A stretch of DNA of 64,000 bases from Celeribacter marinus (GTDB taxonomy: Bacteria; Pseudomonadota; Alphaproteobacteria; Rhodobacterales; Rhodobacteraceae), in NCBI RefSeq assembly GCF_001308265.1, contig NZ_CP012023.1, positions 2,742,932-2,806,931 on the forward strand. The letters are read 5' to 3'. Position 1 is the stretch's first letter. Every line of letters begins with the position of its first letter. The position numbers were made by a program, and so were the translations under genes. Below, piece by piece: positions 3,606 through 22,146 of this stretch. A model generated the notes under the pieces. It was not told the origin of the DNA, did no database searches, and saw nothing but the letters and a program-made list of their open reading frames with translations.

Positions 3606-3966
3606 CTCCACCCCGACACAGGTGAGTCGCACGACAATCCGACCCCATGAGGTCACGAGCATCATAGGGTAAATGCCCACCCGTTTTGTGTTAGCGCCCT
3701 CATTTGCACGCCACCTGAGCGGCGCACCCACGTGGCAGATGACAACTCGCAATTTACCCAACGTTAACCCTTTGCAATCACATCAAATTTTCTAATTTTT
3801 AGTCACAATTTACAAATGCCGAACTCAAATAGTGAAGTTGTTAACAAAAAAACGTAGCATGCGCAGCATCTTACGCGCTTTTTGACAAAAACCCCGTTAA
3901 ACCTCAACGCAGGAGGAGGTTCGCGTTCGCGCAACCCCCATGGAGAGACTATTCAGGGAGCTTGCA
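3606..3966 (+). promoter_or_regulatory. Non-coding region with acs promoter and leader
   Basis: This 361-base gap has no convincing gene. It is AT-rich from about 3765 to 3860, unlike its flanks, and contains a 10-bp palindrome TTGTTAACAA (3838-3847). An AGGAGGAGG run at about 3911-3919 precedes a short in-frame ATG at 3940. A second ribosome site, AGGGAG (3955-3960), lies ahead of the acs start. The palindrome is a plausible operator; the regulator is unknown. Confidence 0.5.
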
Positions 3967-5928
3967 ATGTCTGACGAAACCCTCATGACAAAACCCTCAC
4001 CCGCCTTTACGGCGTCTGCGCATATTGATCGTGCGGGGTATGATGAGATGTATGCGCGCTCTGTGTCTGATCCTGTGGGATTTTGGGGGGAGATGGGCAA
4101 GACGCTTGATTGGATCACGCCCTATACCCAAGTCAAAAACACCACATTCGATTTCGGCCGCGTGGATATCCAGTGGTATTCGGACGGCGTGCTCAACGTG
4201 TCCGCCAACTGTATCGACCGCCATTTGCCCAAGCGCTCACTGCAAACCGCGATCATTTTCGAGCCGGACGACCCCGAGACCCCCGCCCAGCACATCACCT
4301 ACAAAGAGCTGTCTGACAAGGTCAACCGCTTTGCCAACGTGCTGTTGTCTCAGGGCGTGATGCGCGGCGACCGCGTGGTGATCTACCTGCCGATGATCCC
4401 CGAGGCCGCCTATGCCATGCTGGCCTGTGCGCGTATCGGCGCGATCCATTCCATTGTATTCGCTGGATTTTCCCCAGACGCGCTGGCCAACCGCATCAAC
4501 GACAGTGGCGCAAAGGTGGTGATCACCGCTGATCACGCCCCGCGCGGTGGCCGCTCCACCCCGCTCAAATCCAATACCGATGCCGCCCTGTTGCACTGCT
4601 CCGACAAAGTGCGCTGCCTCGTGGTCAAACACACCGGCGAGCAGACCTCATGGGTCCAAGGTCGCGATGTCGACGTCAAATACCTGATGGAGCACGCAAG
4701 CCCCGAGTGCCCGCCCCGTCCGATGAACGCCGAAGATCCGCTCTTCGTGCTCTACACCTCTGGCTCGACCGGCAAGCCAAAGGGCGTGGTCCACACCTCG
4801 GGCGGCTATCTGACCTACGCGGCACTGACGCATAAATACGTCTTTGATTACCATGATGGCGATGTGTTTTGGTGCACCGCCGATGTCGGTTGGGTCACGG
4901 GTCACAGCTACATTATCTACGGCCCGCTGGCGAACGGCGCCACCACCGTGATGTTCGAGGGCGTGCCAACCTACCCCGATGCCGGCCGGTTCTGGCAGGT
5001 TTGTGAAAAGCACAAGGTGAACCAGTTCTACACCGCGCCCACGGCGTTGCGTGCGCTGATGGCTCACGGCAATGCGCCCGTGGAAAAATATGACCTATCG
5101 TCCATTAAAGTGCTCGGCACCGTGGGCGAGCCGATCAATCCAGAGGCATGGAATTGGTACAATGACGTGGTCGGCAAGGGCAAAGCTCCGATCGTCGACA
5201 CGTGGTGGCAGACCGAAACAGGCGGGCACCTTTTGGCGCCACTTCCGGGCGCTGTGGCCACCAAACCGGGCTCTGCGACCTTGCCATTCTTTGGCGTACA
5301 GCCGGTGATTTTGGACGCTACAAGCGGCGAAGAAATCACCACCACCGAGGCCGAGGGCGTGTTGTGCCTCAAGGACTCATGGCCCGGCCAGATGCGCACC
5401 GTTTGGGGCGATCACGAGCGGTTCCAAGAAACCTATTTCCAACAGTACAAAGGCTACTATTTCTCGGGCGATGGCTGTCGCCGTGACGCCGATGGCTACT
5501 ACTGGATCACGGGGCGCGTCGACGATGTGATCAACGTGTCGGGCCACCGCATGGGCACCGCCGAAGTCGAAAGCGCACTCGTCGCCCACGCCGCCGTGGC
5601 TGAGGCCGCCGTGGTCGGATATCCCCATGAAATCAAAGGCCAAGGCATCTACGCCTATGTCACTTTGATGAATGACCAAGAGCCAAGTGATGCGCTCAAA
5701 AAGGAACTCGAGGTCTGGGTGCGCACCGAAATCGGCCCGATTGCAAAGCCTGATTTTATCCAGTGGGCCCCTGGCCTGCCCAAAACCCGCTCCGGCAAAA
5801 TCATGCGCCGCATCCTACGCAAAATCGCCGAAAACGACACAGGCAGCATGGGCGACATCTCAACCCTCGCAGACCCAAGCGTTGTCGAGGATTTGATTGG
5901 AAATTCTATATACGCAGTATCTGCGTAA
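3967..5928 (+). CDS. acs: Acetate--CoA ligase (acetyl-CoA synthetase)
   Basis: A 653-residue enzyme, close to the 652 residues of E. coli Acs. It activates acetate to acetyl-CoA through acetyl-AMP in the cytosol. The ATP-binding P-loop '[11 protein letters not shown]' sits near residue 264. 'WWQTETGG' is near 415, and the C-terminal '[11 protein letters not shown]' near 610 carries the lysine that is acetylated in regulated Acs enzymes. ATG 3967 is chosen because AGGGAG lies six bases upstream and the protein then starts 'MSDETLM'; an upstream ATG at 3940 would add nine residues. The symporter genes downstream suggest coupled uptake and activation of acetate or related acids. Confidence 0.95.
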
Positions 5929-6000: not shown

Positions 6001-6108
6001 ACTGGGAAGGGAGGCGACACAGAGCATGCCGCTCGTGTTGCAGTTAAATGATGACGGCAAGTGGACACAATCCGCACCGTGATCGGGGACAAAAGGGAGG
6101 ACCGCATA

Positions 6109-6366
6109 ATGGCGGACAACTCACAAAACAACGCTTACTGGGCAGCGAACAAACGGATCATCGGCATTAGCCTCGTGATCTGGTTCCTGTGTTCATTCGG
6201 TGCAGGCATCCTGTTCCGTCCGATGCTGTCAGGCATCAAAATTGGCGGCACGGACCTCGGGTTCTGGTTTGCACAACAAGGGTCGATCCTTGTGTTTCTT
6301 GTGCTGATCTTCACCTACGCAATCAAAATGAACAAACTCGACAAAGAACACGGCGTCGACGAATAA
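6109..6366 (+). CDS. DUF4212 protein, small subunit of sodium:solute symporter
   Basis: An 85-residue protein with two membrane helices (about residues 18-38 and 51-72). The pattern 'WFLCSFGAGILF' followed by 'FWFAQQGSILVFLVLIFTYA' is characteristic of DUF4212, the small partner of VC_2705-type symporters. ATG 6109 is preceded by AAAAGGGAGG and gives the canonical short N-terminus; the longer frame lacks a ribosome site. It is 12 bases upstream of the large symporter subunit, so the two are surely co-translated. It acts in the inner membrane. Confidence 0.9.
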   Translation: MADNSQNNAYWAANKRIIGISLVIWFLCSFGAGILFRPMLSGIKIGGTDLGFWFAQQGSILVFLVLIFTYAIKMNKLDKEHGVDE

Positions 6367-6378
6367 GGAGCCCAGAGA

Positions 6379-8118
6379 ATGGATCAGTTTACCCTCAACC
6401 TCATCGTTGTGGGCGCGACTTTTGCGCTCTACATCGGTATCGCGATCTGGGCCCGTGCGGGTTCCACATCTGAATTCTATGCAGCTGGCCGTGGGGTCCA
6501 CCCCATCGTCAACGGTATGGCAACTGGCGCTGACTGGATGTCTGCCGCATCGTTTATTTCGATGGCCGGTATCATCTCTTTTGGCGGCTATAACACCTCC
6601 GCTTACCTGATGGGTTGGACGGGCGGCTACGTGCTTCTCGCTATGCTCATCGCGCCTTATCTGCGCAAGTTCGGCAAATTCACCGTGCCCGAGTTCATCG
6701 GTGACCGTTTCTATAGCCAAACAGCACGCACCGTGGCTGTTATCTGTCTCATCGTTGCGTCTTTGACCTACGTGATCGGCCAGATGACGGGCGTTGGCGT
6801 TGCGTTCTCGCGCTTCCTCGAAGTGGACAAAACAACCGGTCTTTTGATCGGTGCAGCCATCGTGTTTTTCTACGCGGTTATTGGCGGCATGAAGGGCATC
6901 ACCTACACGCAGGTCGCCCAGTATGTCGTTCTCATCACGGCCTACACGATCCCTGCGATCTTCATCTCGCTCAAACTCACAGGCAATCCTGTCCCACCGC
7001 TTGGTCTGTTCGCAGATGCCAAGTCGACGGGTCTGCCATTGCTTGAGACGCTCAACGGGATGCTCGCGGACCTCGGCTTTGCCGAATACACCAAGCAATC
7101 AGATACAACGCTGAACATGTTCTTGTTCACCGTGTCTTTGATGATTGGTACCGCCGGCCTGCCACACGTTATCGTGCGTTTCTTTACGGTTCCAACCGTA
7201 GCTGATGCGCGTTCGTCTGCCGGTTGGGCCTTGGTCTTTATCGCATTGTTGTACCTCACCGCTCCTGCGGTTGCTGCAATGGCGCGTGTGAACCTGATCG
7301 ACACGTTTTACCCCAATGGCACAACAAGCGAGGCCGTCTCTCTCGAAGCAATCGAGAACGACGCAAACCTTGATTGGGTGCGCAACTGGGAGCAAACAGG
7401 TCTCTTGGGCTTTGAAGACAAAAACGGCGATGGCTTCATCCAGTATAATGGATCGGCCGACAACGAGTTGACCGTGAACCGTGACATCATCACGCTTGCC
7501 AACCCCGAGATTGCCAACCTTCCCGGTTGGGTGATCGCACTGGTTGCTGCGGGTGGCCTAGCGGCGGCACTCTCGACTGCTGCGGGCTTGCTCATGGCGA
7601 TTTCGTCAGCTGTCTCTCACGACCTCATCAAGTCGCAGATCAACCCATCCATCTCCGAGAAAGGCGAACTCTTGTCCGCTCGTATCGCAATGGGTGTCGC
7701 GATCTTGGTTGCAACCTACCTCGGCATGAACCCTCCGGGCTTTGCCGCGCAAACCGTGGCTCTTGCCTTTGGTCTGGCTGCCTCCTCGATCTTCCCTGCT
7801 TTGATGATGGGGATCTTCTCCAAGCGCGTGAACAACAAAGGCGCGGTTGCGGGTATGCTTGCAGGTCTTGGTGTGACAGTTGTCTACATCTTCTTGCACA
7901 AAGGTTGGTTCTTTATCCCAGGAACAGCATCCTTTGACGACAGCAACCCATTGCTCTTGTCGATCAAATCGACATCCTTTGGCGCAATCGGTGCGGCAAT
8001 CAACTTTGCGGTCGCCTACGTGGTCTCCAACGCCACAGACGAGCCGCCTGTTGAAATTCAGGAACTGGTCGAAAGCATCCGTATCCCACGTGGTGCCGGC
8101 GGCGCTGTTGATCACTAA
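6379..8118 (+). CDS. Sodium:solute symporter family permease (VC_2705/ActP-like)
   Basis: A 579-residue multi-spanning inner-membrane protein of the SSS family. The N-terminal 'TSEFYAAGRGVHPIVNGMATGADWMSAASF' region and 'GTAGLPHVIVRFFTVP' are family landmarks. Neighbouring acs and the DUF4212 subunit make a short-chain carboxylate such as acetate the most likely substrate. A hydrophilic insertion at about residues 315-370 contains 'DKNGDGFIQYNG' (347-358), which has the spacing of a calcium-binding EF-hand/dockerin loop. A terminator follows at 8163. Confidence 0.9.
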   Translation: MDQFTLNLIVVGATFALYIGIAIWARAGSTSEFYAAGRGVHPIVNGMATGADWMSAASFISMAGIISFGGYNTSAYLMGWTGGYVLLAMLIAPYLRKFGKFTVPEFIGDRFYSQTARTVAVICLIVASLTYVIGQMTGVGVAFSRFLEVDKTTGLLIGAAIVFFYAVIGGMKGITYTQVAQYVVLITAYTIPAIFISLKLTGNPVPPLGLFADAKSTGLPLLETLNGMLADLGFAEYTKQSDTTLNMFLFTVSLMIGTAGLPHVIVRFFTVPTVADARSSAGWALVFIALLYLTAPAVAAMARVNLIDTFYPNGTTSEAVSLEAIENDANLDWVRNWEQTGLLGFEDKNGDGFIQYNGSADNELTVNRDIITLANPEIANLPGWVIALVAAGGLAAALSTAAGLLMAISSAVSHDLIKSQINPSISEKGELLSARIAMGVAILVATYLGMNPPGFAAQTVALAFGLAASSIFPALMMGIFSKRVNNKGAVAGMLAGLGVTVVYIFLHKGWFFIPGTASFDDSNPLLLSIKSTSFGAIGAAINFAVAYVVSNATDEPPVEIQELVESIRIPRGAGGAVDH

Positions 8119-8162
8119 ATAGGATTGGGCTGGCCCTCGGGCCTGCCCGTCTTCATACTGCT

Positions 8163-8197
8163 GGGCGCGGGGGTCAAACTGGCTTGCGCGCCCTTTT
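8163..8197 (+). terminator. Intrinsic terminator after the symporter gene
   Basis: GGGCGCG (8163-8169) pairs with CGCGCCC (8187-8193), followed by TTTTCCTTTTATTTTT. It separates the transporter from the DUF294 gene, whose start is only 24 bases past the stem, so the downstream signalling genes rely on read-through or an internal promoter. Confidence 0.8.
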
Positions 8198-8220
8198 CCT
8201 TTTATTTTTCAGGTGTCGTT

Positions 8221-10038
8221 ATGGACGCAACGCAAAAAATTCTCACCTTTCTCGAAGCGGCACATCCCTATGACGTGTTGCCCCGCACCGAGCTGGAAGA
8301 ACTGGCGCAATCCTTCGCACGTAAAACCTACACCGAGGGCGAGGCTATTTATGCTCACGGCGACCTACTCGAAGGGCTGTACCTGATCAAAGAGGGCAGC
8401 GTCGAGATTACCGATGTGAACGGCGCGCAGGTGTCCCTCTTGCAAAAGTCCAACCACTTTGGCGAACGTGGATTGTTGCGTGACGGTTTGGCAGCGACCA
8501 CCGCCGTGGCGGCGTCTAAAACCACGCTCCTGATCCTCACCCCCAAGGCGTTCAAGGACGAAGTGGCCAAAAGCCCCGCCTTTGCCCGTTACTTCAATCG
8601 TGGCCAAGCACGCCCGCAGGCCGCCGCAGGTCTGATGACGCAACACGTCTCGGATTTGATGGCCAAAGACCCCGTGACCTGTCCCATCGATATGACCATT
8701 TTGGAATGCGCACGCCTGATGCGCGACCGCCGCGTGTCGTGCCTTGCTGTAACGGACAACGCCGCCCTCAAGGGTCTGGTGACCGTACGCGACATGACGA
8801 ACAAAGTTCTGGCCGAGGGCTTGGATACCGCCCTGCCCGTTTCGACCATCATGACACCCGACCCCATCACGTTGGAGCCATCAGCCCTTGGAACCGATGT
8901 GATCCAAACCATGCTAGAGGCCAAGATTGGCCACCTGCCTATCACAGAGGCCGGCCGCCTTGTCGGCATGGTAACGCAAACCGATATCACGGGCTTTTTC
9001 GGATCGTCACAAACCCAAATGATATTCGAACTAACCAAAGCAAAAACGGTGGCCGAAATGGCCGATGTCACCGCGCGCTTGCCTACGTTTCTTATGCAAC
9101 TTGTCGGCGCACATCTGGCTCATGATGTTGTCACACGTAAGATCACGGATGTTGCTGATATCGTCACGCGCCGCCTCATCAAGATGTACGAGAGCGACTG
9201 TGGCGCCGCTCCCGTTCCTTACCTATGGGCCGCCTGTGGCAGTCAGGGCCGCCAAGAGCAAACGGGCGTCTCCGATCAAGACAATTGCCTCATCATCGAC
9301 AACGCCGCCACTGACGCCGACATGGCCTATTTCAACGCTATGGCCAAATACGTCTGCGATGGATTGGATGCCTGTGGTTACGTCTATTGCCCCGGCGATA
9401 TGATGGCGATGGCGGATCGGTGGTGCCAACGTCTGTGCGTTTGGGAAAGCTATTTTGACACATGGATCAACAAGCCAGATAGCGAGGCGCAAATGCTTGC
9501 CTCCGTGATGTTCGATCTACGACCGATTGCGGGCGACAACTCGCTCTTTAAACCGCTTCAGCAAAGCGCCCTGCAATCTGCGAAAAAGAACTCGATCTTT
9601 GTCGCGCATATGATTTCCAATTCGCTCAAACACACGCCACCCCTTGGGCTGTTGCGCGGGTTTGCCACCATTCGTTCGGGCGAGCAACGCGGACATCTGG
9701 ACATGAAACACAACGGCGTTGTGCCCCTTGTCGATCTGGGCCGCGTCTATGCCCTCCAAAGCGGGACATCCGCGTGCAACACCCGGGCACGCATCGACGC
9801 CGCGATAGAGGCAGGTGTCATCTCCGCCTCGGGCGGGGCCGATCTTTTGGCGGCCTATGACACCATTGCCACGGCCCGCCTTGAACATCAGGCGGAACAA
9901 GTGCGCGTTGGAGACGCGCCCGACAACTACCTTAGCCCCTCGGCAATTCCCGCCTTTGAGCGCTCCCATTTGCGCGATGCCTTTGTCATCGTGCGCACCA
10001 TGCAATCCTCGCTCGGCTCGTCATCCGCGCGCAGCTAA
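8221..10038 (+). CDS. cNMP-binding/CBS/DUF294 nucleotidyltransferase-like signalling protein
   Basis: A 605-residue soluble protein in four parts. Residues about 10-125 form a cyclic-nucleotide-binding fold ('EGEAIYAHGDLLEGLYLIKEG', then 'FGERGLL'). Residues about 140-260 are a CBS pair ('VSDLMAKDPVTC', 'VSTIMTPDPITL'). Residues about 290-430 are a DUF294 GlnD-like nucleotidyltransferase with 'CGSQGRQEQTGVSDQDN' near 338. The rest is the DUF294 C-terminal substrate-binding helical domain. ATG 8221 is chosen because the cNMP fold begins directly after it; an upstream in-frame ATG at 8125 would run through the terminator hairpin. Such proteins are commonly found beside SSS symporters and exonuclease-domain proteins. 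The nucleotidyl acceptor is unknown. Confidence 0.85.
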   Translation: MDATQKILTFLEAAHPYDVLPRTELEELAQSFARKTYTEGEAIYAHGDLLEGLYLIKEGSVEITDVNGAQVSLLQKSNHFGERGLLRDGLAATTAVAASKTTLLILTPKAFKDEVAKSPAFARYFNRGQARPQAAAGLMTQHVSDLMAKDPVTCPIDMTILECARLMRDRRVSCLAVTDNAALKGLVTVRDMTNKVLAEGLDTALPVSTIMTPDPITLEPSALGTDVIQTMLEAKIGHLPITEAGRLVGMVTQTDITGFFGSSQTQMIFELTKAKTVAEMADVTARLPTFLMQLVGAHLAHDVVTRKITDVADIVTRRLIKMYESDCGAAPVPYLWAACGSQGRQEQTGVSDQDNCLIIDNAATDADMAYFNAMAKYVCDGLDACGYVYCPGDMMAMADRWCQRLCVWESYFDTWINKPDSEAQMLASVMFDLRPIAGDNSLFKPLQQSALQSAKKNSIFVAHMISNSLKHTPPLGLLRGFATIRSGEQRGHLDMKHNGVVPLVDLGRVYALQSGTSACNTRARIDAAIEAGVISASGGADLLAAYDTIATARLEHQAEQVRVGDAPDNYLSPSAIPAFERSHLRDAFVIVRTMQSSLGSSSARS

Positions 10039-10056: not shown

Positions 10057-10572
10057 ATGCTCCTCGAATTCATCGCCGTTATCGCCCTCGGGGGCGGCAC
10101 CGCCGGCATCGTTATGCTGATCCAAAAGCTCACACGCGGCGCACTGCCACGTTGGTCCACATCCGCGGCGGCCGGTCTGGCCATGCTCGGCTTTGCGATT
10201 TGGAGCGAATACTCGTGGCTTGACCGGACCGCTGCGGCCCTCGGCCCCGACCACGTTGTCGTGACATCGGTAGAGCGCAAACAGATCTGGCGGCCATGGA
10301 CCTATTTGGTCCCTGTCACCACCCGATTTATCACGGTGGATATGGGCAAGACCCAGATCAAAGACCGCATTGTGGCAACTGACCTATACTTGCTCTCAAG
10401 ATGGCAAAAGGGGGCGGTTGTGCCCGTTGCCTTTGATTGCCAGTTGGGCAGGCGCGCCGATATATTCGCGGGATTTTCGGATGATCTCGCCGCTGATCTG
10501 ATCGGCGCGAATTGGATCACACTTGAAGAGAACGACCCGATTTTTACACAGGCGTGCACAGCCCTCAACTAA
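10057..10572 (+). CDS. Conserved hypothetical membrane protein
   Basis: A 171-residue protein with two predicted membrane helices (about residues 4-24 and 35-55) and a soluble C-terminal part starting near 'VVTSVERKQIWRPWTYLVP'. I do not recognise a named family. It lies 18 bases after the DUF294 gene and about 30 bases before the response regulator, so it belongs to the same transcript. The topology would place most of the protein on one face of the inner membrane. A role in the sensor branch of this group is only a guess from position. Confidence 0.7.
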   Translation: MLLEFIAVIALGGGTAGIVMLIQKLTRGALPRWSTSAAAGLAMLGFAIWSEYSWLDRTAAALGPDHVVVTSVERKQIWRPWTYLVPVTTRFITVDMGKTQIKDRIVATDLYLLSRWQKGAVVPVAFDCQLGRRADIFAGFSDDLAADLIGANWITLEENDPIFTQACTALN

Positions 10573-10603
10573 GGCGCGCGCCGCACACGGAGAGACGACA
10601 CAC

Positions 10604-10993
10604 ATGCGCGGTCCAGACCATATCTTGCTCGTCGAGGATGAGGACAACATAGCAATCGCGGTGGAGCTGTTGCTTGTACGCGCGGGGTATCATGTCACGC
10701 GTGTTGCGACCGGATGTCAGGCGTTGCCCAATTTGCGCGCTTTGATCCCCGCGCTTGTCATTTTGGATGTGACCTTGCCCGAAATGTCGGGCTACGAGAT
10801 CTGCCAACAGCTGCGCCGCGATCCTGATTTGGGTCGAACGCCTGTCTTGATCATGTCGGCCCGCACCTCTCCTGCGGAACAGCGAAAAGCAATGGCCATG
10901 GGCGCAGACGCCTTTTTGGCGAAACCTTTTGCGGCCACTGACCTCATCACCGCCGTGCACCACCTCTCGAAAGGGACACCCCATGAACATTGA
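10604..10993 (+). CDS. Single-domain response regulator (CheY-like receiver)
   Basis: A 129-residue stand-alone receiver. Acidic residues E11, D12 and D14, phospho-acceptor D55 in 'LVILDVTLPEMSGYE' and the conserved lysine K107 in 'AKPF' are all present, so it should be phosphorylatable. There is no output domain. ATG 10604 is preceded by GGAGAGAC. Its 3' end overlaps the start of the sensor/exonuclease gene by 11 bases, implying translational coupling and a shared function. Its partner could be that protein or another kinase elsewhere. Confidence 0.9.
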   Translation: MRGPDHILLVEDEDNIAIAVELLLVRAGYHVTRVATGCQALPNLRALIPALVILDVTLPEMSGYEICQQLRRDPDLGRTPVLIMSARTSPAEQRKAMAMGADAFLAKPFAATDLITAVHHLSKGTPHEH

Positions 10994-13079
10994 ACACTGG
11001 TCCCTGCGTCTGCGCGTCTTTCTCTTTTTCGCATTCCTTGCGGCGGCGGGCATTGGCGCAGTGTGCGCAGGCCTGTATTTTGGCTTTCACCGCCTCGCCA
11101 TCCCCCAAGCCCTCAATGGATTTGTCTTTGCTGGCGCGATCTCTAGCTTTGCCATCCTTGGCGTAACTGTGTGGATCTGGCTCATGTTTGATGAAAACGT
11201 GGCCAAACCGATCCAACGGCTTTCAGGGGGCATGTTGGCACGCGCCCATGCGAACGTGGAGGATGAACTAGACGCAAGTACAGCTCGCTACCTTGGGGAT
11301 CTTGCACCCGCCGCTCGCGCCGTGACCCAAAACCTGTCAGCCACACGCAACCAGTTGGCCGAAACCGTGGCCCAAGAGACAACACGTCTGGTTGAGGAAA
11401 AGGAAAAACTGTCTGCCCTATGCGCAGATATCCCGCTTGGCGTAGCCCTCGTATCGGGCGCGCACAAGCTGGCATTCTACAATGGCGCTGCCGCTGAATT
11501 GCTCGGAGCCGACCACGCCCCGGGCTTGGATCATTCGGTGTTCGACTACCTGAGAGACGCTCCCATCCTCTCCGCCTACCGCCGCCTGTGCGCCGGCGAA
11601 GGCGGTGACGGCCACGTGATCGCCCTCACAATTGCGACCCGCCATGGCGCACATACTGTGTCCGCACGTTTGCGTCTCACCCACGCCCCGAGCGAGGGAG
11701 ACGCCACGCCGCCCTATGTGCTCACCCTTGATGACGTCACCGACGATTTGGCCACACATGTGACACGAGAGGCGTTGTTGCGCCGCGTGGTCAATCGGCT
11801 CCGCCCGTCTGTCGCCATGCTCAAAACCGCGCTCGACGCGCGCGCATCGGATGACACCTTGCGCCATGACGCGCGTCTGGACGGCGCGATGATGTCAGAG
11901 CTGAACACGCTCATTGCCGAGTTCCACGATATTGACGCCACCTACGAGAACGCCAAAAGCGATTGGTGGCCGATGGGCACCGTACGGGGTGCTGACCTGT
12001 GCGATGCTCTCACCGCGCGCCTTGAGGATGATGGGATCGCGCTATCCGCAGACGTGCCCGATCCCCTTGATCTCACGCTCGACGCGGTACAGATTATTTC
12101 CCTCATCGACCATATCGCGCAACACCTCACTCGTGATGGGGCAAAGGCGCTCTCACTCCTGATCACGCCAGAGGACACCGGCGCTATGATTGCGTTAGGA
12201 TGGTCGGGTGAGCCGCTTGCTGTGGATCGTCTGGATGGCTGGATGCGCAGCGAGATCGATGTCGGATTGGCCAACATGACGGGGCGCGCGATCCTTGACC
12301 TACACGCGACCGAGCTGTGGCCGGAACAGGGGCGTGGCTCACGAGCAGTACTCAAACTGCCGATCCGCGACGCGCATCGTCGCCATATGACCGCACAGGG
12401 TCGCCGCACAGTGGCCTATGATTTCGACCTCCTCGCCAAAACACCGCCCAAGGACGTGATGGACGCGCCACTATCCGATCTGACCTATGTTGTGTTCGAC
12501 ACCGAAACCACGGGCCTCTTGCCGTCTCAAGGTGATGAGATATGCCAAATTGCCGCCCTGCGTGTCGTCAACAATAAGATCATTCATGGCGAGGCCCTTG
12601 ATCGCTTGGTCAACCCCGGTCGCGACATCCCCGCCGCGTCTACCGCCGTGCATCATATCACCAACGCAATGGTCAAAGATGCCCCCGCAATTGGTGTCGT
12701 CGGCAAGCAACTCCATTCCTTTTCGCGCGGTGCAGTTCTGGTCGCTCACAACGCACCATTTGATCTAGAATTCCTGCGCCGTCACGAGGCCGACATCGGC
12801 GCAAAATTCACCAATCCCGTTCTTGATACCGTGCTGCTGTCCGCGGTGGTCTTTGGCCAAAGTCAGGATCATACACTTGACGCCATTTGCGATCGTCTGG
12901 GCGTGCGCATAGCGCCCGAAGCGCGCCACACTGCCATGGGAGACACCGTTGCCACCGCAGATGTGTTCATCAAAATGGTGCGCATGGCGCAAGAAAGAGG
13001 GATCAATACCTTTGGCGAGATGCTTGTCCAGATGCGCAAACACAAACGCCTGCTCCAAGATGCCAATGACCACTTGTAA
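10983..13079 (+). CDS. Membrane sensor pseudo-kinase fused to a DEDDh 3'-5' exonuclease
   Basis: A 698-residue fusion. Two membrane helices (about 11-35 and 42-66) and a HAMP-like linker come first, then a PAS-like domain (about 165-260). A histidine-kinase-like core follows (about 270-480). There the usual phospho-acceptor motif is replaced by 'RRVVNRLRPSVAML', which has no histidine, and the ATP-binding N-box is only weakly recognisable ('IISLIDHIAQHL'). Residues 497-698 form a complete DnaQ-like exonuclease: 'VFDTETTG' (D506, E508), 'HNAPFDLEF' (D594), 'HTAMGD' (H649, D654). ATG 10983 overlaps the receiver gene. It may tie sensing of carbon supply to nucleic-acid or nucleotide turnover at the membrane; the substrate is unknown. 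Confidence 0.85.
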   Translation: MNIEHWSLRLRVFLFFAFLAAAGIGAVCAGLYFGFHRLAIPQALNGFVFAGAISSFAILGVTVWIWLMFDENVAKPIQRLSGGMLARAHANVEDELDASTARYLGDLAPAARAVTQNLSATRNQLAETVAQETTRLVEEKEKLSALCADIPLGVALVSGAHKLAFYNGAAAELLGADHAPGLDHSVFDYLRDAPILSAYRRLCAGEGGDGHVIALTIATRHGAHTVSARLRLTHAPSEGDATPPYVLTLDDVTDDLATHVTREALLRRVVNRLRPSVAMLKTALDARASDDTLRHDARLDGAMMSELNTLIAEFHDIDATYENAKSDWWPMGTVRGADLCDALTARLEDDGIALSADVPDPLDLTLDAVQIISLIDHIAQHLTRDGAKALSLLITPEDTGAMIALGWSGEPLAVDRLDGWMRSEIDVGLANMTGRAILDLHATELWPEQGRGSRAVLKLPIRDAHRRHMTAQGRRTVAYDFDLLAKTPPKDVMDAPLSDLTYVVFDTETTGLLPSQGDEICQIAALRVVNNKIIHGEALDRLVNPGRDIPAASTAVHHITNAMVKDAPAIGVVGKQLHSFSRGAVLVAHNAPFDLEFLRRHEADIGAKFTNPVLDTVLLSAVVFGQSQDHTLDAICDRLGVRIAPEARHTAMGDTVATADVFIKMVRMAQERGINTFGEMLVQMRKHKRLLQDANDHL

Positions 13080-13712: not shown

Positions 13713-14882
13713 TTACGGTTCGCGAAAGGCCTCACGCGATTTGTAGAGCGGTTTAAGAAGATATTGCAAAAACGTCTTTGAGCCTGTGTGCAATTCCACC
13801 TGTGCACGCATACCGGGGCGGATTTCGATGTTCTTTTGACGGTCTGTCAGCCCGCCCAAATCAACGGTTGCCGTCACACGGTAATAGGGTTCGGCCTTTG
13901 GATCGCGCTCGTCCTTGAACGTGTCGGCCGACACAACTTTGACCGTGCCTTTGAGCGCACCGTAAATCGTATAATCATAAGCCGACAGTTTGATCGTCGC
14001 GGCCTGACCCGGCTCGACATGCGCGATATCTTCGGGGCGAACTCTGGCCTCAATAAACAACTCTTCGTCAATCGGGATGATCTGGACCAAGTCCTCACCG
14101 GGGCGAATAACGCCGCCAATGGTCGTCACGGTCAACTCGTTGATGATCCCGCGCATGGGAGATGTAATCACCGTGCGGCCCAACTGATCTTGCGCCAATG
14201 TCAGCGCCTGTTTGACAGAGGCTATTTCGCGCAACGTATCGGAATATTCCTCAGCCCGTTTCAACTCGGCTTGGCTCACCGTCTCGTTGTATTTCGCCTG
14301 TGCATCCGAATGCGCCTTGCGCGCTCGGGTCACTTCGATCAATGCCACAACGTTTTTGGTGAGCATATCCTCCATCAAGGAACGCTCGGCCTCGGCCTGT
14401 GTCAACACCGCTAATGCGCCATCTTTGCGTGCCAGATAGTCGGCAGTGCGCGCATTCAAAAGAGCGCGCTCAGAGGCCAAAACCCGCTCGACCCGTCCCG
14501 CCAAATCATCCGGAACTACGAATGCATCAGCGCCCTCTAGCTCTGCCTCAAGGCGCAACTGGCGCACACTTAGCGCATCCAACTGCTCTTGGAGATCATC
14601 GGTCGAGGTGCGAAATTCGGTTCCTTGCAGACGGGCCAATATCTGCCCCTGCTCAACCGTTTGCCCCTCACGCACAAGCATCTCCGACAAAATGCCGCCC
14701 TCAAGGTTTTGCACGATCTGCGAGCGCGACGATGAAATCATTTCACCATCAGATCGGACAATCTCATCGACTGTCGCAATCGAGGCCCAAAGGATAAATA
14801 CCAACACAACCAAGCCCGCGATGCGGATCACCCAACCCGGCTTGTCGAGATCTTTTTCAAGGACGTTATCAAGCGTAACCAT
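13713..14882 (-). CDS. HlyD-family type I secretion periplasmic adaptor
   Basis: A 389-residue membrane fusion protein. A short cytosolic N-terminus precedes one membrane helix (about residues 18-36, 'IAGLVVLVFILWASIATVDE'). A lipoyl/barrel half ('ISSSRSQIVQNLEGGILSEMLVREGQTVEQG') and a coiled-coil hairpin (about 95-225) follow. The conserved C-terminal 'SPMRGIINELTVTTIGGVIRPGEDLVQIIP' region is complete. It bridges the inner-membrane ABC exporter and the TolC-like outer-membrane channel. Its ATG (14882) overlaps the stop of the exporter gene by one base (TGATG), indicating coupled translation. Confidence 0.92.
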   Translation of the reverse strand: MVTLDNVLEKDLDKPGWVIRIAGLVVLVFILWASIATVDEIVRSDGEMISSSRSQIVQNLEGGILSEMLVREGQTVEQGQILARLQGTEFRTSTDDLQEQLDALSVRQLRLEAELEGADAFVVPDDLAGRVERVLASERALLNARTADYLARKDGALAVLTQAEAERSLMEDMLTKNVVALIEVTRARKAHSDAQAKYNETVSQAELKRAEEYSDTLREIASVKQALTLAQDQLGRTVITSPMRGIINELTVTTIGGVIRPGEDLVQIIPIDEELFIEARVRPEDIAHVEPGQAATIKLSAYDYTIYGALKGTVKVVSADTFKDERDPKAEPYYRVTATVDLGGLTDRQKNIEIRPGMRAQVELHTGSKTFLQYLLKPLYKSREAFREP

Positions 14883-17593
14883 CAGCTTGCGCCCCCTTGG
14901 GCCTTGGCAAGATGCGCCGTGACCTGATCGCGCGGGCCATCGACGATCATACGACCGTCTTTAAAGACCATCACGCGGTCCGTCAGCTCAACAATCGGCA
15001 TCCGGTGGGTCGCGATCACCGCAGTGCGTTGATCCAGCCATGTGGACACCCGCTTGATCAACTTGGTCTCAAGCGCTTGATCAAGAGCCGCAGTCGGCTC
15101 ATCAAGCAGGCATACACTGGGATCTTGAAGCCATAAACGCGCCCAACCTATTGACTGGCGCTGTCCGACCGAAAGCCCCTCGCCTCCGTCGCGAATTTCG
15201 AGATCAAGACCACGATGATGGCTACGCACAAACGCGCCAAGCCCCGCGAAATCGAGCGCGCAATACAACCGGTCATCGCCGTGCGGCAATCCGCCAAGCG
15301 ATAGGTTGTCGCGCAGTGTCCCCGCGAACAAACGCACATCCTGACCCAGATATCCGACATTGCGCCGAACATCCCGCGCATCAATCTGGTTCATCTCCGC
15401 GCCATCCAGCATCACACGACCTTGGCTTGGCGAATACAACCCCGCAAGCACCTTGAGAAAGGTCGATTTGCCCGACCCGTTGGCCCCAAGCAGAGCAATC
15501 TTTTGACCCGCCTTTACATCAAGTCCGGGAATATCAAGGCTAGGCGCGCCGTCCGCCTCATATCGAAACTGAACCTCGCGCAATGCAAAGTCGCCCGCGA
15601 TATGCTCGCGGCGCAAATAGCTCCGTGTCGGGTCGCTCTCTTGTGGCGCATCCGCAATCGCATCCAAACCGTTTAGCGCCGTTTTGACATTGCTCCACCG
15701 TGCTAGCGTGCCTGACAATTGTGCCAAGGGCGCAAGAGTCCGCGAGGTCAAAATGCCCGTGGCAATGATCGTCCCGACGGTAAACTCGCCCGCAAAGACC
15801 AGATATGTTCCCGCCACAACGGCCGCCACATAGGTCAATTGTTGAACCGCTTGCGCCCAGAACGTCAACAGGCCTGCCAGCTTGCGTTGCTCCGATGATT
15901 TCACCGATGACAACAGGTTCAACTCGTCCCAAACCCGTTTGATCCGATCCTCACCACGCTGCGATTTGATCGTGTCCAGCTCGAACACTGCCTCATGGAG
16001 CAACCGAGAGGCCTGCGCCGATGCACCTTGTGTCTCTTTGGTGAGTTTCATCATCCGTTTTTGGAAAAAGTACCCCGGTACGATCATCAAAACCGCACCC
16101 GCCATCAACAAAAAGACGACAGGTCCGGCGATCGACGCCACCAGCGCGAAAAACAAAAAGATGAACGGAATATCGGCAACTGTCCCAATCGTGGTCGAGG
16201 TGAAAAACTCACGCACCGACCCAAATTCGCGCATGGCCGAAAACAACCCCGAGGACGTGGTGGGGCGCGCATCCGAACGCATCCCCAAAATCCGGTCCAT
16301 CAAAAGCGACTGCACCTTGGTTTCGATCTGACGCCCCGACCCATCCATAAGGCGTGAACGCGCAAGTTTTAGAACGGCCTCAAGCGCAATCGCCACACCC
16401 GCCCCAAGTGCCAAAACCCAAAGCGTCGATTGGCTTTGATGCGGGATCACACGGTCGTAAACCTGTAGCGAGAACAACGCGACAGCAACGGCAAGCATGT
16501 TGGCAACAAGCGACCCAAGAGCGATTTCACCGATCTGGCGTTTGTAGTCTTTGAACTGCCCCCAAAACCAATGCGCACTCTCAAGGTTCGGCACATAAGA
16601 GCGCGATAGCGCATCAAGTGTCTTTCCCGCACGCACAAGCGTGCCCGAAAAATACGGCGCAAATTCCGTCTCCAACACTTCGGCCGTGTGATCAGGCGCA
16701 GAGCGGTCGTGAATTTTGAGCACGCCGTTATCTTGCCCAAGAACCAAAACGATGTGACCCGATGTCATATACGCCAGTGCGGGCCACAGCCGTGGCTTTA
16801 GCGTTGTCACCGTTGCAACCTGTGAATCCAGTCCCACGTCTTTTAACGCGCGCGCCAGTGTGGCTGGGGCAATATCACCCGATTGCGGTCCGAAACTATC
16901 AATCACATCAGAGACCGTGGCCAACACGCCGAACCGTGAGGCCAAAAGCGTGACAAGCTCCGCGCGCTGCACCGTCTGCTTTGAGATCGCGGGTGCGACA
17001 GGCATAACCGTTGTCGTTGGCGACACTACAGGCTCGGGACGAGTTTGTGGCTGAGCTGGTGCGGCCATCTGAGGCGGGGCAACGGGTTGAGGCGCGGGCT
17101 GTAGCGCAACCTCGGGGGCGCGCGGCGCGGGTGCCTCCACAACAGGCTGATCGACTGTGACCGCTTGTTGCGCCCGCGCTTGCATGCGTGCCTTTGCCTC
17201 GGCTTTGACGGTTGCAGCGTCCTTCTTGAGCGGCTCCCCCCCATCGGTGGCGGCGCGTGCACGGGCCAATCGCTGGGTTTTCGCGGCCTCACGCGCACGG
17301 CGCTCTTCGGCCTGCTCGCGTGCAAGATGCTCTTCGCGCTCCTTGGCGTCTTTGGCGGACTTTGCCGCCATCGCCCGCACCGCTTTGGCGGCGGCACGTT
17401 TCTTGTCGAGGTGCGGATCAACGATCTCAACCTCGGGGATCACCGCCACAGGCACGGCTTTTGGCCGCCCACCCAAATGGACTGTCATTGGTCCGACTTT
17501 GGCATTCGGGGCTTTGGCTTTGTTTGACACGTCTTTGGGCGCCACAGGGCGCGCCGACGTAATCTTGAATGCCAATTTGCTACCCCGGCTCAA
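14882..17593 (-). CDS. Type I secretion ABC exporter, LapB/HlyB-like, with long charged N-terminal extension
   Basis: A 903-residue inner-membrane exporter. Residues about 1-190 are unusual: a Lys/Ala/Glu/Arg-rich likely helical region (about 55-145), then a Pro/Ala/Gln linker. Residues about 205-325 resemble a C39-like domain without a catalytic cysteine, which in this family binds substrate rather than cleaving it. A six-helix membrane domain (about 345-640) and ATPase follow: Walker A 'GANGSGKST' near 704, signature 'LSVGQRQ', Walker B 'VCLLDEP' near 828. The start is a TTG that overlaps the TolC stop as TTGA, with GGAG upstream. It exports the adhesin encoded at the head of the operon. 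A shorter start at the internal ATG near residue 36 is possible. Confidence 0.9.
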   Translation of the reverse strand: MSRGSKLAFKITSARPVAPKDVSNKAKAPNAKVGPMTVHLGGRPKAVPVAVIPEVEIVDPHLDKKRAAAKAVRAMAAKSAKDAKEREEHLAREQAEERRAREAAKTQRLARARAATDGGEPLKKDAATVKAEAKARMQARAQQAVTVDQPVVEAPAPRAPEVALQPAPQPVAPPQMAAPAQPQTRPEPVVSPTTTVMPVAPAISKQTVQRAELVTLLASRFGVLATVSDVIDSFGPQSGDIAPATLARALKDVGLDSQVATVTTLKPRLWPALAYMTSGHIVLVLGQDNGVLKIHDRSAPDHTAEVLETEFAPYFSGTLVRAGKTLDALSRSYVPNLESAHWFWGQFKDYKRQIGEIALGSLVANMLAVAVALFSLQVYDRVIPHQSQSTLWVLALGAGVAIALEAVLKLARSRLMDGSGRQIETKVQSLLMDRILGMRSDARPTTSSGLFSAMREFGSVREFFTSTTIGTVADIPFIFLFFALVASIAGPVVFLLMAGAVLMIVPGYFFQKRMMKLTKETQGASAQASRLLHEAVFELDTIKSQRGEDRIKRVWDELNLLSSVKSSEQRKLAGLLTFWAQAVQQLTYVAAVVAGTYLVFAGEFTVGTIIATGILTSRTLAPLAQLSGTLARWSNVKTALNGLDAIADAPQESDPTRSYLRREHIAGDFALREVQFRYEADGAPSLDIPGLDVKAGQKIALLGANGSGKSTFLKVLAGLYSPSQGRVMLDGAEMNQIDARDVRRNVGYLGQDVRLFAGTLRDNLSLGGLPHGDDRLYCALDFAGLGAFVRSHHRGLDLEIRDGGEGLSVGQRQSIGWARLWLQDPSVCLLDEPTAALDQALETKLIKRVSTWLDQRTAVIATHRMPIVELTDRVMVFKDGRMIVDGPRDQVTAHLAKAQGGAS

Positions 17594-18927
17594 ATCTCTG
17601 CTCCGTTCGCCAAGACACCAGCCAAACGGGCCGCTTCCAATTGCGTTTGCACGATCTCGTATTTGACATCGATGTGTTTCAACTCGTCGCGTACCATCTG
17701 CTCATAGACGCTCAACACATCCATGACCGTCTTTTTGCCGGCCTCGAATTGGTCTTGGAACAGGCGGTAATTTGCACGTGATTGCTGTACCAGATCGGCG
17801 GCGTCCCGCTCCTTGCGGCTCAACGCCTGTAGGCTGCTGTCCAATCTCGAACGCTGACGCGCTGCGGTCTCTTGCGCGCGACCGACAAGGGCGAGAGCCG
17901 CCCCCTCGCGTGCTTTGCTCGCTTCCATTTCGGCGCGCGTGCCAAGGCCTAGGCCACTGCCCTCATAGTCCAAAGCAGCCGAGCTATTCTTACCAATCAA
18001 TCCCGTTGCGGACAAAGTGGGCAACAAGGATGCACGCTCCACATGGGCCTCCGCAGAGGCGCGTTTGGCCTCAGCCCGTGCGCGCACCACATCCAATGTC
18101 TCAAGGGACGAGGACGCCAATTTGATCCCACTTGGCGCGCTCAATTCAGGCACAGAGTGGCCCGACATCATAGAGCGCAATTCGGAAATCGCGCTATCAC
18201 GCGCCTCGCTGTGGGTCGCGGCCTCGTGCTCCATCTCGGAGATTTTGGAATGCACCACACGCTCGTCAGCAAGACTGGAAAGCCCCCCGCGCACGCGCTC
18301 GCCAACCACACGGTTGAACTCGCGCATCCGCCCTAGACCACTTTGCGCCATCGCGGTTTTTTCGCGCGCCTCAGCGGCGACAACCAGTAGCTCCAGCCCC
18401 GAATGAACGCGGTCGTTTTCATCTTGAGCCAAGACAACCGCAGCCACTTCGACATCGGCGGCAGCAAATTCGCGCTCGGCCTTTTTCTTGCCGTTGTCGT
18501 ACAACACCTGATTGACCAATAACCCGGCCGCGAATTCACCCAATGACGTCAACGAGATGGAAGGGCCAATCGTGGGAAGCCAGTTTTTATCACGCGACAC
18601 AGACCGCATTTTGGCCGCACGCAACTCTGCCTGCGCCACACCTGATGAGGTTTCAAGCAACGTCGATGCCAACGTGTCATAGGGCGAGCCTGCATCCAAC
18701 ACACTGCGCCGCGAAATCAGGCCCGAAATGATCTCGGATCCGCTATCAGAATTGGCCGCCGCAAGTTGCGGCGCACCCGTCACCATCGGGGCCGGAGCCG
18801 CCATTTGGTCACGTACAAACGCCACAGGTTTGACATCGGAGAGTTTGGACATCAAAGGCGCATCCATACATCCAGACAGAGCAGTGGTTGCCCCGATAAA
18901 GATACAAACTGAAAGACCCTTGCGCAT
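17590..18927 (-). CDS. TolC-family outer membrane efflux/secretion lipoprotein
   Basis: A 445-residue protein. The N-terminus 'MRKGLSVCIFIGATTALSGC' is a lipoprotein signal peptide with the acylated cysteine at residue 20. The rest is helix-rich with the paired repeats of TolC-like proteins (for example 'LLVNQVLYDNGKKKAEREFAAAD' and, late in the protein, 'QFEAGKKTVMDVLSVYEQM'). ATG 18927 is preferred over an upstream frame start because GAGGG precedes it and the lipobox is then correctly placed. It forms the outer-membrane channel of the type I system and lies 54 bases after the adhesin gene. Confidence 0.9.
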   Translation of the reverse strand: MRKGLSVCIFIGATTALSGCMDAPLMSKLSDVKPVAFVRDQMAAPAPMVTGAPQLAAANSDSGSEIISGLISRRSVLDAGSPYDTLASTLLETSSGVAQAELRAAKMRSVSRDKNWLPTIGPSISLTSLGEFAAGLLVNQVLYDNGKKKAEREFAAADVEVAAVVLAQDENDRVHSGLELLVVAAEAREKTAMAQSGLGRMREFNRVVGERVRGGLSSLADERVVHSKISEMEHEAATHSEARDSAISELRSMMSGHSVPELSAPSGIKLASSSLETLDVVRARAEAKRASAEAHVERASLLPTLSATGLIGKNSSAALDYEGSGLGLGTRAEMEASKAREGAALALVGRAQETAARQRSRLDSSLQALSRKERDAADLVQQSRANYRLFQDQFEAGKKTVMDVLSVYEQMVRDELKHIDVKYEIVQTQLEAARLAGVLANGAEI

Positions 18928-18981
18928 GACACCCTCACTCAACACCTGCGTGAACTGACCCCGAAAAGACACAAGACGTCC

Positions 18982-21900
18982 TTACGGGAGCACCACTTCG
19001 ATATCGTGATCTACCAGAACCTGACCCTCGTCGCCCAATGTATAGACATCGTAGGTCGCGCCATCGATTTGCGTCGATTGGCCTGTGTTCGTTGCACCCT
19101 CGAGGATCACACGGTCGTCTTCGCCGCCATGAATGGTGATCGCACCATCCACGCCCGCCAAACGATCCATGTCAGCGGCCTTGAGCGTGACCTGACCACC
19201 GTTGACGAACTGAAGATCAATCGCGCCAAGCTCGAACCCGTCAAGGCCGGTATTGTCGAGATCAACATCGAACATCGCGCCATCAGGGCGTTCATTGGTG
19301 GTGTCGAGTACAAACAGAGTATCAGATTGGTTGCCCGCTGTGTCCTCAGAGGACAACACGATTTGCGACCCGTTCGGGATCTTGTTGCCAAAGACCATCA
19401 TAGTTTCGCTGCCGACCTCAATGTCGGTTGCGGCCACTTCGGTAACTTGGCCCGCATCCGTGACAGAAAAGACCGAGACATCATCCGCCGTAGCGTCGAT
19501 TGAAACAGACCGTACACCGGTGGTGTCGCGCATAACCGCCTCGACCACGGGTTCGGTGTCGATGGTATCAATCTCGATCTGTGTCATCTCGGACAAGGTA
19601 TTGTTGTATTTGTCGATGGCTTCGATTTTCACGTCTGCGAACCGTTCGCCGCCCGCAATCACACCGTCCTCAAACGTCACGGTCCAGCCGCCGTTGCTGT
19701 CCACCTCTGCTTGTTGGCGCACGCCGTCGATAGTGACAAAGACGCGCGACCCTGCTTCGACTTCGCCCGTTAGAACCAGACCACCGTCCATTTCCGCGCC
19801 GTTAAATACGCCATCCGCGCCCGCAACATTGGCGTCCATGCCAAGCTCGTTCACAATTGTGTCGTAAGTCACCGTGTCGGACAAACGTGCCTCGTTACCC
19901 GCAAGGTCGGTTGCTACGACCAAGATTGGAACAAAGCCCTCGCCCGCAGGGATTGTACCCGCAGGAAGCGTATAGGACCACGCACCTGTGCCATTGGCCG
20001 TGACCGAGAACTCGGACCCGCCCACGGTGATGACCACATCTGAATATGGCTCAACTTGACCGTTCAGTTTCACACCGTTGTCAGATTCTGTTTTGTTTAC
20101 AACGCCATCGGAGCCGCCAAAATCAGACAGGTTATTGAATTCATTTACAAAAGTATCGACTTCGATTGCGCGGGTAACCGTTTTGGTGTTGCCCGCATCA
20201 TCCGTGATCGTCGCCGTAGCTTCGGTCATGTATTCGCCCGCGACCACTTCGCTTGCGGCAAATTTCACCGCGAACGAGCCACCAGATGAGGCCCGTACCG
20301 TGTGCGACGCATCGCCCAACGTCACGACCACATTTAGTCCCGGCGTTGCCGTACCCGTAATCCAGACGCCATCAGCGGCCTCATCAAAGTTGATGACGTT
20401 GTCGCCCTCAACCGGACCGGTCGAGAGGGCAACATTGCCAGCCACGGTATCTACACGAACAGACGTTGCTGACTGCGCAGAGTTACCCGCCGCGTCTGTC
20501 GCAACTGCCGTGAGTGTTGTGTTGTATTCACCCGCAGGCAACGTACCGGCCGGAAGTGTGACATTCCAAACGCCGTTTGCGCCCGCCGCCGTGGTCATCT
20601 CCACACCTTGAAGCGTGACAACAACGATCGATCCGGGTTCGGCTGTGCCAGAGAACGTGAGCGGTTGACCGCTTTCCGAAAGGTTCACGATCTCGTCGCC
20701 ACCCGAGTGGTTCGGATCAATCGCAACACCCATTTCAGTGTCGATATGGAATGTGCCAGATGTGGACGACGAATTGCCCGCCGCGTCCGTGGACACCGCC
20801 GTCACATTGGCGTCATAGGTGCCTTGGGGCAGTGAACCATTGGCGTAGTTGACCGTCCACGTTCCATCCTCACCGACAGTTGTCGAGCGCGATACGCCCG
20901 CGACCGTCACCACCACAGTCGAGCCTGCCTCGCCGGTGCCGGACAAATCAACGCTCTCTTTCATTTCAGACAGGTTTACAGTGCCGTCACCACCCGCGCC
21001 GCCCGCGTTCACCGTCAGGCCGCCTTCGAGGTCGACGTGAACGTCATGCGTATAACTCGCCGCATTGCCTGCCGCGTCCGTAACGGTCGCAGAGATAGTG
21101 CTATCGTATGTTCCAGACGGGAATTGCGTGCCGTCAAAAACGGCGCTCCATGTGCCATCTTGGCCAACGGTCGTTTCGACCTGCTGACCTTCCATTGTGA
21201 CAACAACGGTTGCGCCGGCTTCGGAGGTTCCCGATACGGTCACATCGCCTGTGGCTTCGTCGATATTGATGACATTGTCGCCAGCAACCATATCAAACGT
21301 TAGGTCTTCCGCTTCGGTATCGACCAAAAGCGTATCAGTCACAGTCGTAGAGTTGCCCGCCCCGTCCGTCGATGTGACGGTGACATCTGTGGTGTATTCA
21401 CCCTCTTCAATCGTTTCGCTGTCGAAATCGACAGTCCACGTGCCGTCCTCGTTTACCGTGGTTGTACCCGTGGTGTCGTTGATAGTGACATCCACCGTTG
21501 CACCCGGCTCACCCTCGCCCGAAATGGTAAAGCTGCCACTATCGTAGCCCTCGCCATTGACGATCGCACCCGTTCCTTCGGTTCCGTCCGTAATGACAAC
21601 ATCAGGCGCAGATGTGTCGGGCGCAGACCCGCCACCACCACCACCACCATCACTTCCACCGCCATCACCATTCGCGAGCGCACCAGCCGCCAAAGCTGCA
21701 CCACCTGCACCAAGACCAAACAATGGGCCAAGCAATGGCGCGGCAATCGGCGCAACAACCGGTTCGATCCGCTCAAGGTCAAGGAACACCAACTGGTCGT
21801 ATTCGCTCCACTTGCCCGACAAATCGACATCGCCGTAACTTGCCAGCAATTCACCCTCAGCCGTGTCTGCAAATTCAACCTCGGAGATAAAACCGCGCTC

Positions 21901-22146
21901 GGACAGCAACAGCTCCTTTTCACCGCCAACAAAGAAGCCTTCGAGACGAATTTCCTTGCCACCGACCAACGTGAGGATCAAATCCCCGCCGTCGCGCGCA
22001 TAACCGGAAATCGCGGCCTGCGTTGTGTTCAATGAAATGTCTTCTATGCCCGCCATACGGATGACTTCGACATCACCCGCGAGAGAAAGACTGCCTGTGT
22101 CGATTTCGCCCGCATTATTGCGGACGGTAAATTGCAAACCTACCAT
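18982..22146 (-). CDS. Large Ig-like-repeat adhesin, type I secretion substrate (BapA-prefix type)
   Basis: A 1054-residue acidic surface protein. Residues 1-128 resemble the BapA-prefix domain. A hydrophobic stretch (about 129-158, 'PLLGPLFGLGAGGAALAAGA') and a poly-glycine linker (about 160-173) follow. Seven Ig-like repeats of 94-98 residues (about 183-855) each carry a variant of 'SGTGEAGSTVVVTVAG', then 'DGTWTV', then 'ATDAAGNS', and end near a 'VDT'. The C-terminal 200 residues ('VYTLGDEGQVLVDHDIEVVLP' end) likely hold the secretion signal. No RTX nonapeptides (GGxGxD) are seen. As the first gene before TolC, ABC and HlyD genes it is the obvious substrate. The N-terminal hydrophobic plug may hold it in the channel, as in LapA-type adhesins (inference). 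Confidence 0.85.
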   Translation of the reverse strand: MVGLQFTVRNNAGEIDTGSLSLAGDVEVIRMAGIEDISLNTTQAAISGYARDGGDLILTLVGGKEIRLEGFFVGGEKELLLSERGFISEVEFADTAEGELLASYGDVDLSGKWSEYDQLVFLDLERIEPVVAPIAAPLLGPLFGLGAGGAALAAGALANGDGGGSDGGGGGGGSAPDTSAPDVVITDGTEGTGAIVNGEGYDSGSFTISGEGEPGATVDVTINDTTGTTTVNEDGTWTVDFDSETIEEGEYTTDVTVTSTDGAGNSTTVTDTLLVDTEAEDLTFDMVAGDNVINIDEATGDVTVSGTSEAGATVVVTMEGQQVETTVGQDGTWSAVFDGTQFPSGTYDSTISATVTDAAGNAASYTHDVHVDLEGGLTVNAGGAGGDGTVNLSEMKESVDLSGTGEAGSTVVVTVAGVSRSTTVGEDGTWTVNYANGSLPQGTYDANVTAVSTDAAGNSSSTSGTFHIDTEMGVAIDPNHSGGDEIVNLSESGQPLTFSGTAEPGSIVVVTLQGVEMTTAAGANGVWNVTLPAGTLPAGEYNTTLTAVATDAAGNSAQSATSVRVDTVAGNVALSTGPVEGDNVINFDEAADGVWITGTATPGLNVVVTLGDASHTVRASSGGSFAVKFAASEVVAGEYMTEATATITDDAGNTKTVTRAIEVDTFVNEFNNLSDFGGSDGVVNKTESDNGVKLNGQVEPYSDVVITVGGSEFSVTANGTGAWSYTLPAGTIPAGEGFVPILVVATDLAGNEARLSDTVTYDTIVNELGMDANVAGADGVFNGAEMDGGLVLTGEVEAGSRVFVTIDGVRQQAEVDSNGGWTVTFEDGVIAGGERFADVKIEAIDKYNNTLSEMTQIEIDTIDTEPVVEAVMRDTTGVRSVSIDATADDVSVFSVTDAGQVTEVAATDIEVGSETMMVFGNKIPNGSQIVLSSEDTAGNQSDTLFVLDTTNERPDGAMFDVDLDNTGLDGFELGAIDLQFVNGGQVTLKAADMDRLAGVDGAITIHGGEDDRVILEGATNTGQSTQIDGATYDVYTLGDEGQVLVDHDIEVVLP

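Follow-up and report, generated by a model that had tools for sequence, protein, structure and literature searches.

A histidine-less kinase core joined to a predicted membrane exonuclease in Celeribacter marinus is evolutionarily tied to an adjoining receiver gene

Introduction

The pseudokinase core of DivL from Caulobacter has been repurposed to sense phosphorylated DivK, with the DHp helices as the receiver-docking module and a conserved Tyr at the phospho-site (PMC4211667). CrbS is described as a symporter-STAC-kinase fusion (PMC5715377). PP_0353 of Pseudomonas putida, described only as an RNase_T protein under the control of MxtR/ErdR, is encoded in an operon with a CBS-domain gene (PP_0353/PP_0354), and homologues adjoin actP in P. 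aeruginosa. The same paper (PMC9927547) reports that pp_0353 is required for normal growth on pyruvate, whereas growth on acetate does not depend on it; mRNA decay is offered there as speculation.

The locus described here was found in a window of 64,000 nucleotides, the whole stretch of DNA analysed, from the genome of Celeribacter marinus (one contig, 3.10 Mb). It resembles DivL/DivK in combining a PAS domain with a DHp-CA core that lacks the phospho-accepting His, and a receiver is the probable partner. Asn271, however, occupies the site where DivL has Tyr, and the relatives mostly have Glu or Asp there; whereas the output of DivL is another kinase pathway, the focal chain ends in an exonuclease. 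That domain, residues 503-662, is similar to the DnaQ/PolC-type DEDDh exonucleases in its five catalytic residues, but it is fused to a membrane-PAS-pseudokinase front and has no polymerase part. As in the CrbS/CrbR (MxtR/ErdR) acetate switch, two-component genes lie beside acetate genes, and as in PP_0353/PP_0354 an RNase_T gene and a CBS-domain gene share one operon, a likeness drawn from description and not from sequence. No description of a membrane pseudokinase-exonuclease fusion was found in the literature searched, a search mostly outside subscription journals.

Results

Gene run and domain organization

The pseudokinase-exonuclease gene has an ATG start, at which the alignments of the relatives also begin, and its nearest named relatives come from Celeribacter. 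It is the last gene of a same-strand run beginning with acetate--CoA ligase. The genes of the run and the parts of the protein are as follows:

3940 to 5928, + strand: acetate--CoA ligase (acs); NCBIfam TIGR02188, above cut-off
6061 to 6366, + strand: DUF4212 small symporter subunit; PF13937, and TIGR03647 above cut-off
6379 to 8118, + strand: VC_2705-type sodium/solute symporter; TIGR03648, 2e-248
8125 to 10038, + strand: cNMP-binding, two CBS, DUF294 nucleotidyltransferase-like protein; PF00027, PF00571, PF03445 and PF10335 above cut-offs; the actual start may be further in
10057 to 10572, + strand: 171-aa protein of no known family, conserved in position
10604 to 10993, + strand: receiver-only response regulator, 129 aa; PF00072, 3.9e-24
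10983 to 13079, + strand: membrane pseudokinase-exonuclease, 698 aa
11004 to 11186, + strand: two transmembrane stretches, residues about 8-68; hydropathy and model helices
11433 to 11747, + strand: PAS-like domain, residues about 151-255; weak PAS matches, low model confidence
11739 to 11966, + strand: His-less DHp hairpin, residues about 253-328; model helices 253-289 and 297-328, the 245-470 model, and alignments
11967 to 12377, + strand: CA-like domain without recognisable ATP motifs, residues about 329-465; VIA match to PrrB
12489 to 12968, + strand: DEDDh exonuclease domain, residues 503-662; PF00929

The 171-aa protein had no match in Pfam, NCBIfam or PHROGs; it keeps its place between the DUF294 and receiver/exonuclease genes in 101 of the 103 loci of the host's bacterial family with at least 6.5 kb of upstream sequence, and the DUF294 protein stands alongside the exonuclease in all 103. 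On the minus strand, positions 13713 to 22146 hold genes for an HlyD-type adaptor, an ABC exporter and an outer-membrane channel beside a large repetitive adhesin-like frame (18982 to 22146), which look like a type I secretion set. As for an anti-phage role, PADLOC matched the exonuclease (DEDDh, PDC-S48) and, more weakly, the products of the receiver and DUF294 genes (SduA, PDC-M60B, TIR-effector and Pycsar models), and all these matches were read as generic domains.

The protein had been annotated as membrane-bound, in agreement with two hydrophobic stretches (hydropathy centres 15-26 and 52-61) and with helices 8-38 and 46-89 of the full-length model, between which about 7 residues are left outside the membrane. 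With hardly any loop in the periplasm, the protein is unlikely to have a periplasmic ligand. The PAS assignment is weak, with PAS_8 at E=0.12 in the focal protein and PAS_4 in 3 of 16 relatives (best 2.1e-4). The full-length model has a pTM of 0.36, which leaves the relative arrangement of the domains unfixed.

The exonuclease domain is the constant part of the family

Residues 503-662 match RNase_T (PF00929) at 4.3e-35, and their best solved sequence relative is the PolC exonuclease 2p1j (9.6e-23), with DnaQ exonucleases also among the solved relatives. The catalytic set D506, E508, D594, H649 and D654 is complete, just as the initial annotation had it, and by profile and catalytic residues the domain is a predicted 3'-5' DEDDh exonuclease. 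The five residues are intact in the focal protein and in 147 of 148 relatives (149 aligned rows), the exception, L127, lying at a contig end, and they are also intact in 75 loci outside the host's bacterial family. The exonuclease is a constant part of the protein family, and the occurrence of the same architecture with the same five residues in the family rows argues against chance. Related exonuclease domains also occur behind other fronts: in L080 (G173) the front matches TM-PAS weakly and DUF294 lies downstream, and in L200 (G667) the domain is preceded by a transporter-like stretch.

The kinase-like core lacks the phospho-acceptor histidine

The residue aligned with the phospho-His position is N271 (codon AAT, 11793-11795). 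Among 127 receiver-paired sequences, a set that includes near-duplicates, this position is Glu in 58, Asp in 41, Ala in 11, Thr in 6, Ser in 5 and six other residues once each, so that Glu or Asp accounts for 99 of 127, Tyr for 1 and His for none. The stretch that follows is conserved in the same 127: R274 in 115, P276 in 95, A278 in 117, N279 in 86 (Ser in 21) and L280 in 106. Since His is absent across the alignments of the relatives, a loss confined to one genome is ruled out; the His-less core is a family trait and not a local mutation, and other classes of the phylum have it too.

The ATP-binding site, which had been called unclear, was likewise not recognised. HisKA and HATPase_c were not listed up to E=10 in 16 family members, in a listing from which the HMMER filters drop most matches above about 0.1. 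A search of the host genome for HATPase_c (PF02518) to E=1 returned 24 places, 23 of them above the cut-off, and the focal gene was not among them. The N-box and DxGxG motifs are absent from the core, as judged by eye on the alignments. With neither the phospho-acceptor His nor recognised ATP-binding motifs, the core is predicted to fail as a functional histidine kinase.

The core is nevertheless predicted to have an ordinary kinase fold. The model of residues 245-470 has a mean pLDDT of 84.2 and its Foldseek matches are kinase cores; the CA part aligned to PrrB (VIA-align) with Z 14.6 and rmsd 2.7 over 131 residues, and DivL (4q20) was among the fold matches at Z 13.2 over 125 residues, no better than many true kinases. 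A normal kinase with a displaced histidine, which the initial annotation had named as an outcome against it, is ruled out by the kinase-fold matches and by the aligned site, where His is missing at its proper place. Alignments over DHp and CA together gave 206 residues at rmsd 13.4 for ZraS (9jfj) and 199 residues at rmsd 17.8 for HK853 (4jau), and because both values are large the placement of DHp against CA differs from that in ZraS and HK853. Six close pairs gave dN/dS ranges of 0.04-0.19 (DHp), 0.03-0.12 (CA) and 0.01-0.07 (exonuclease), with several synonymous distances near saturation, and DHp and CA appear from these ratios to be under purifying selection.

The adjoining receiver

The receiver frame ends at 10993, which gives an 11-nt overlap with the start of the pseudokinase-exonuclease gene and bears out the overlap noted earlier. 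The searches used 10598-10993 and residue numbers count from 10598, the natural ATG being at 10604; in this numbering the codon of the phospho-Asp D57 is at 10766. D57, T/S87 and K109 are each kept in 49 of 50 sequences. The receiver of the focal locus is a receiver domain without any further domain, and it looks phospho-competent from its site residues. As the pseudokinase has no phospho-acceptor His, the phosphate would come from another kinase or from a small donor. Unlike in CrbS, the sole SSF frame in the host genome (E up to 0.001) is the 583-aa symporter of the operon, not fused to a kinase, and with no second SSF protein a CrbS-type kinase is ruled out as the phosphate source.

Co-loss of the receiver and the DHp hairpin

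The survey covered 295 genomes of the host's bacterial family, of which 283 had a match at 1e-20, many merely at the level of other DnaQ-like genes, and it returned a long form of about 700 aa and a short form of about 480 aa. From it 133 loci were taken with up to 10 kb upstream (strong matches in G026, G029 and G289 lie outside these loci), the receiver was scored by a purpose-built receiver HMM, and the hairpin was called present (DHp+) when at least 50 of the 65 profile positions 261-325 were occupied. L132 and L161, at contig ends, were left out, which gave 131 usable loci. L079 was scored as receiver-positive despite the degenerate state of its receiver (26.8 bits), L080, doubtful as an orthologue, was retained as an exception, and L129 was set to DHp+ by hand as its gene lies in two frames. 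In this last locus (G065) the assembly splits the pseudokinase-exonuclease gene and the receiver upstream is intact.

Hairpin and receiver were both present in 49 loci and both absent in 80; two loci (L064 and L080) had the hairpin alone and none had the receiver alone, i.e., an adjoining receiver gene was found in 49 of 51 DHp+ loci versus 0 of 80 DHp- loci. Nine DHp- loci (L072-L077, L081, L084 and L085) keep a remnant of CA despite the loss of the hairpin. The loss is specific to the receiver and the hairpin, and the other operon genes stay: in the 60 DHp- loci whose upstream sequence reached 6.5 kb or more, none lacked the 171-aa protein, DUF294, SSS or DUF4212 and none had the receiver, and among the 43 such DHp+ loci the counts of these four were 41, 43, 42 and 41, with the receiver in 41. 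A single deletion taking both is ruled out by gene order, because the TM-PAS part, situated between the two, has been retained.

On a FastTree of DUF294 (129 loci, without L078 and L080) the hairpin changes nine times and the receiver ten times; four independent pairs on supported branches were concordant in nearly all pairings and none was opposed (p 0.125, a number of pairs too small for a decision). The tree built with IQ-TREE from DUF294 joined to SSS, for which 62 loci were hand-chosen to span the transitions and 60 remained after L112 and L114 fell out, gave 11 hairpin and 12 receiver changes, with 7 or 8 of 8 independent pairs concordant and none opposed (sign test p 0.008-0.016). The event counts are soft because the two trees disagree in places. 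Intermediates fit the co-loss: the receiver of L061 is weak (82.6 bits) and lacks D14, and the sister locus L064 has an altered hairpin and no receiver; in L079 the hairpin is poor and the receiver has lost D57 and K109. These results support an evolutionary tie of the receiver gene to the core and, within the core, to the DHp hairpin. What such co-retention demonstrates is a functional tie rather than contact.

Occurrence outside the family

Searches by class, order and phylum gave 75 tallied loci outside the family, a count of returned loci only, which in one search were those for 30 of 61 matches. The hairpin was present in 66 of them, 65 with upstream sequence (L234 has none), and a receiver match was found in 62 of these 65, in 19 of 22 genera, the match of L187 being weak (40 bits). 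A strict check of strand and 5' order was passed by 57 of the 62, and the other five lie within the 5' extension of a long open frame. The DHp+ loci without an adjoining receiver match are L064 and L080 in the family and L185, L231 and L260 outside; within genus g583, L231 has the hairpin and no receiver, and L244 has neither. Among 20 wider neighbourhoods, L266, L267, L270, L275 and L279 have the receiver and the pseudokinase-exonuclease with no SSS or DUF294 in the stretch covered, and L268, L278 and L285 are without an adjacent receiver. Outside the family, the architecture of the short frames that lack DHp is uncertain, and these frames were excluded from support.

Discussion

We lean, by somewhat better than an even chance, towards a reversed two-component logic in which, by analogy with DivL/DivK but with a nuclease as output, a phosphorylated receiver docks on the His-less DHp and controls the membrane exonuclease. 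The pseudokinase-exonuclease would be a scaffold anchored in the membrane, probably dimeric, with a kinase core turned into a receiver-reading module. The neighbouring receiver, phosphorylated elsewhere, would dock on the hairpin and move the CA domain together with the C-terminal DEDDh exonuclease, and this shift may switch or position 3'-5' trimming of nucleic acid at the membrane, with PAS/TM input perhaps tuning the control. In this reading we infer the dimer, the physical docking, the direction of control, the nuclease activity and the substrate. Species without receiver and hairpin keep the simpler TM-PAS-exonuclease, and must therefore manage with PAS/TM input or with constant activity. 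The idea of a ligand- or phospho-state-controlled nuclease, put forward in the initial annotation, is upheld in part: the pseudokinase core is real, the exonuclease residues are intact and the receiver is tied to the hairpin, but the near lack of a periplasmic loop makes a periplasmic ligand unlikely.

The co-retention of receiver and hairpin would also be expected if control ran the other way, with the core binding or dephosphorylating the phosphorylated receiver as a sink or phosphatase and the exonuclease separate and constant. Histidine kinases often act as phosphatases of their own receivers, but the usual phosphatase pattern begins with Glu or Asp directly after the His, and here such a residue follows the phospho-His position in just 13 of 127 sequences. 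The ATP site of the core is not recognised either, and the constancy of the exonuclease would be left unexplained; we regard this direction as unlikely. Receiver and hairpin could, rather than touching, serve one process in parallel, the receiver for example working with another kinase and the hairpin just dimerising the nuclease. The covariation analysis (mutual information with APC, 127 pairs, effective number 78) counts against docking and suits such an arrangement: it showed no excess on the hairpin, whose pairs made up 0 of the top 20, 2 of the top 50 and 9 of the top 100, and the short forms work without a hairpin. The five DHp+ loci without an adjoining receiver match count against docking as well. 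The DHp hairpin, however, is where receivers are known to dock on kinases, and it is lost along with the receiver and not with the other operon genes, so that a parallel role seems to us rather unlikely.

A decaying kinase core with no present role is very improbable. In each of the six pairs tested DHp and CA do show faster evolution than the exonuclease, and they have been deleted repeatedly, as a vestige might be. Against this stand the low dN/dS values of both domains given above (some synonymous distances near saturation), the maintenance of the hairpin motif in several classes and the coincidence of hairpin loss with receiver loss. The docking of a phosphorylated receiver on the His-less hairpin remains our preferred reading. 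Its extension to a phylum-wide class, in which His-less kinase cores read phosphorylated receivers and have a membrane-bound 3'-5' exonuclease as direct output, so that two-component signalling would reach nucleic acid with no transcription factor in between, is more tentative, and we hold it to be possible at somewhat less than even chances. The DUF294 nucleotidyltransferase-like protein could be a partner enzyme of the nuclease, and, as a bolder extension, the two could form a writer/eraser pair for nucleic-acid 3' ends. The protein may also be linked to acetate, as its genomic context suggests, but in several distant relatives the receiver and the pseudokinase-exonuclease occur with neither symporter nor DUF294 genes in the stretch covered.

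If the docking reading is true, a two-component system directly controls a nuclease, and the reading of receivers by dead kinases, known from DivL, would be more ancient and more widespread. The exonuclease and DUF294 genes adjoining acetate and pyruvate uptake genes would also gain a role that can be put to the test. Our results suggest that the module of interest is the receiver together with the His-less DHp and the exonuclease, and the family offers natural experiments on it, with species that have receiver and hairpin, species that have neither, and species in between.
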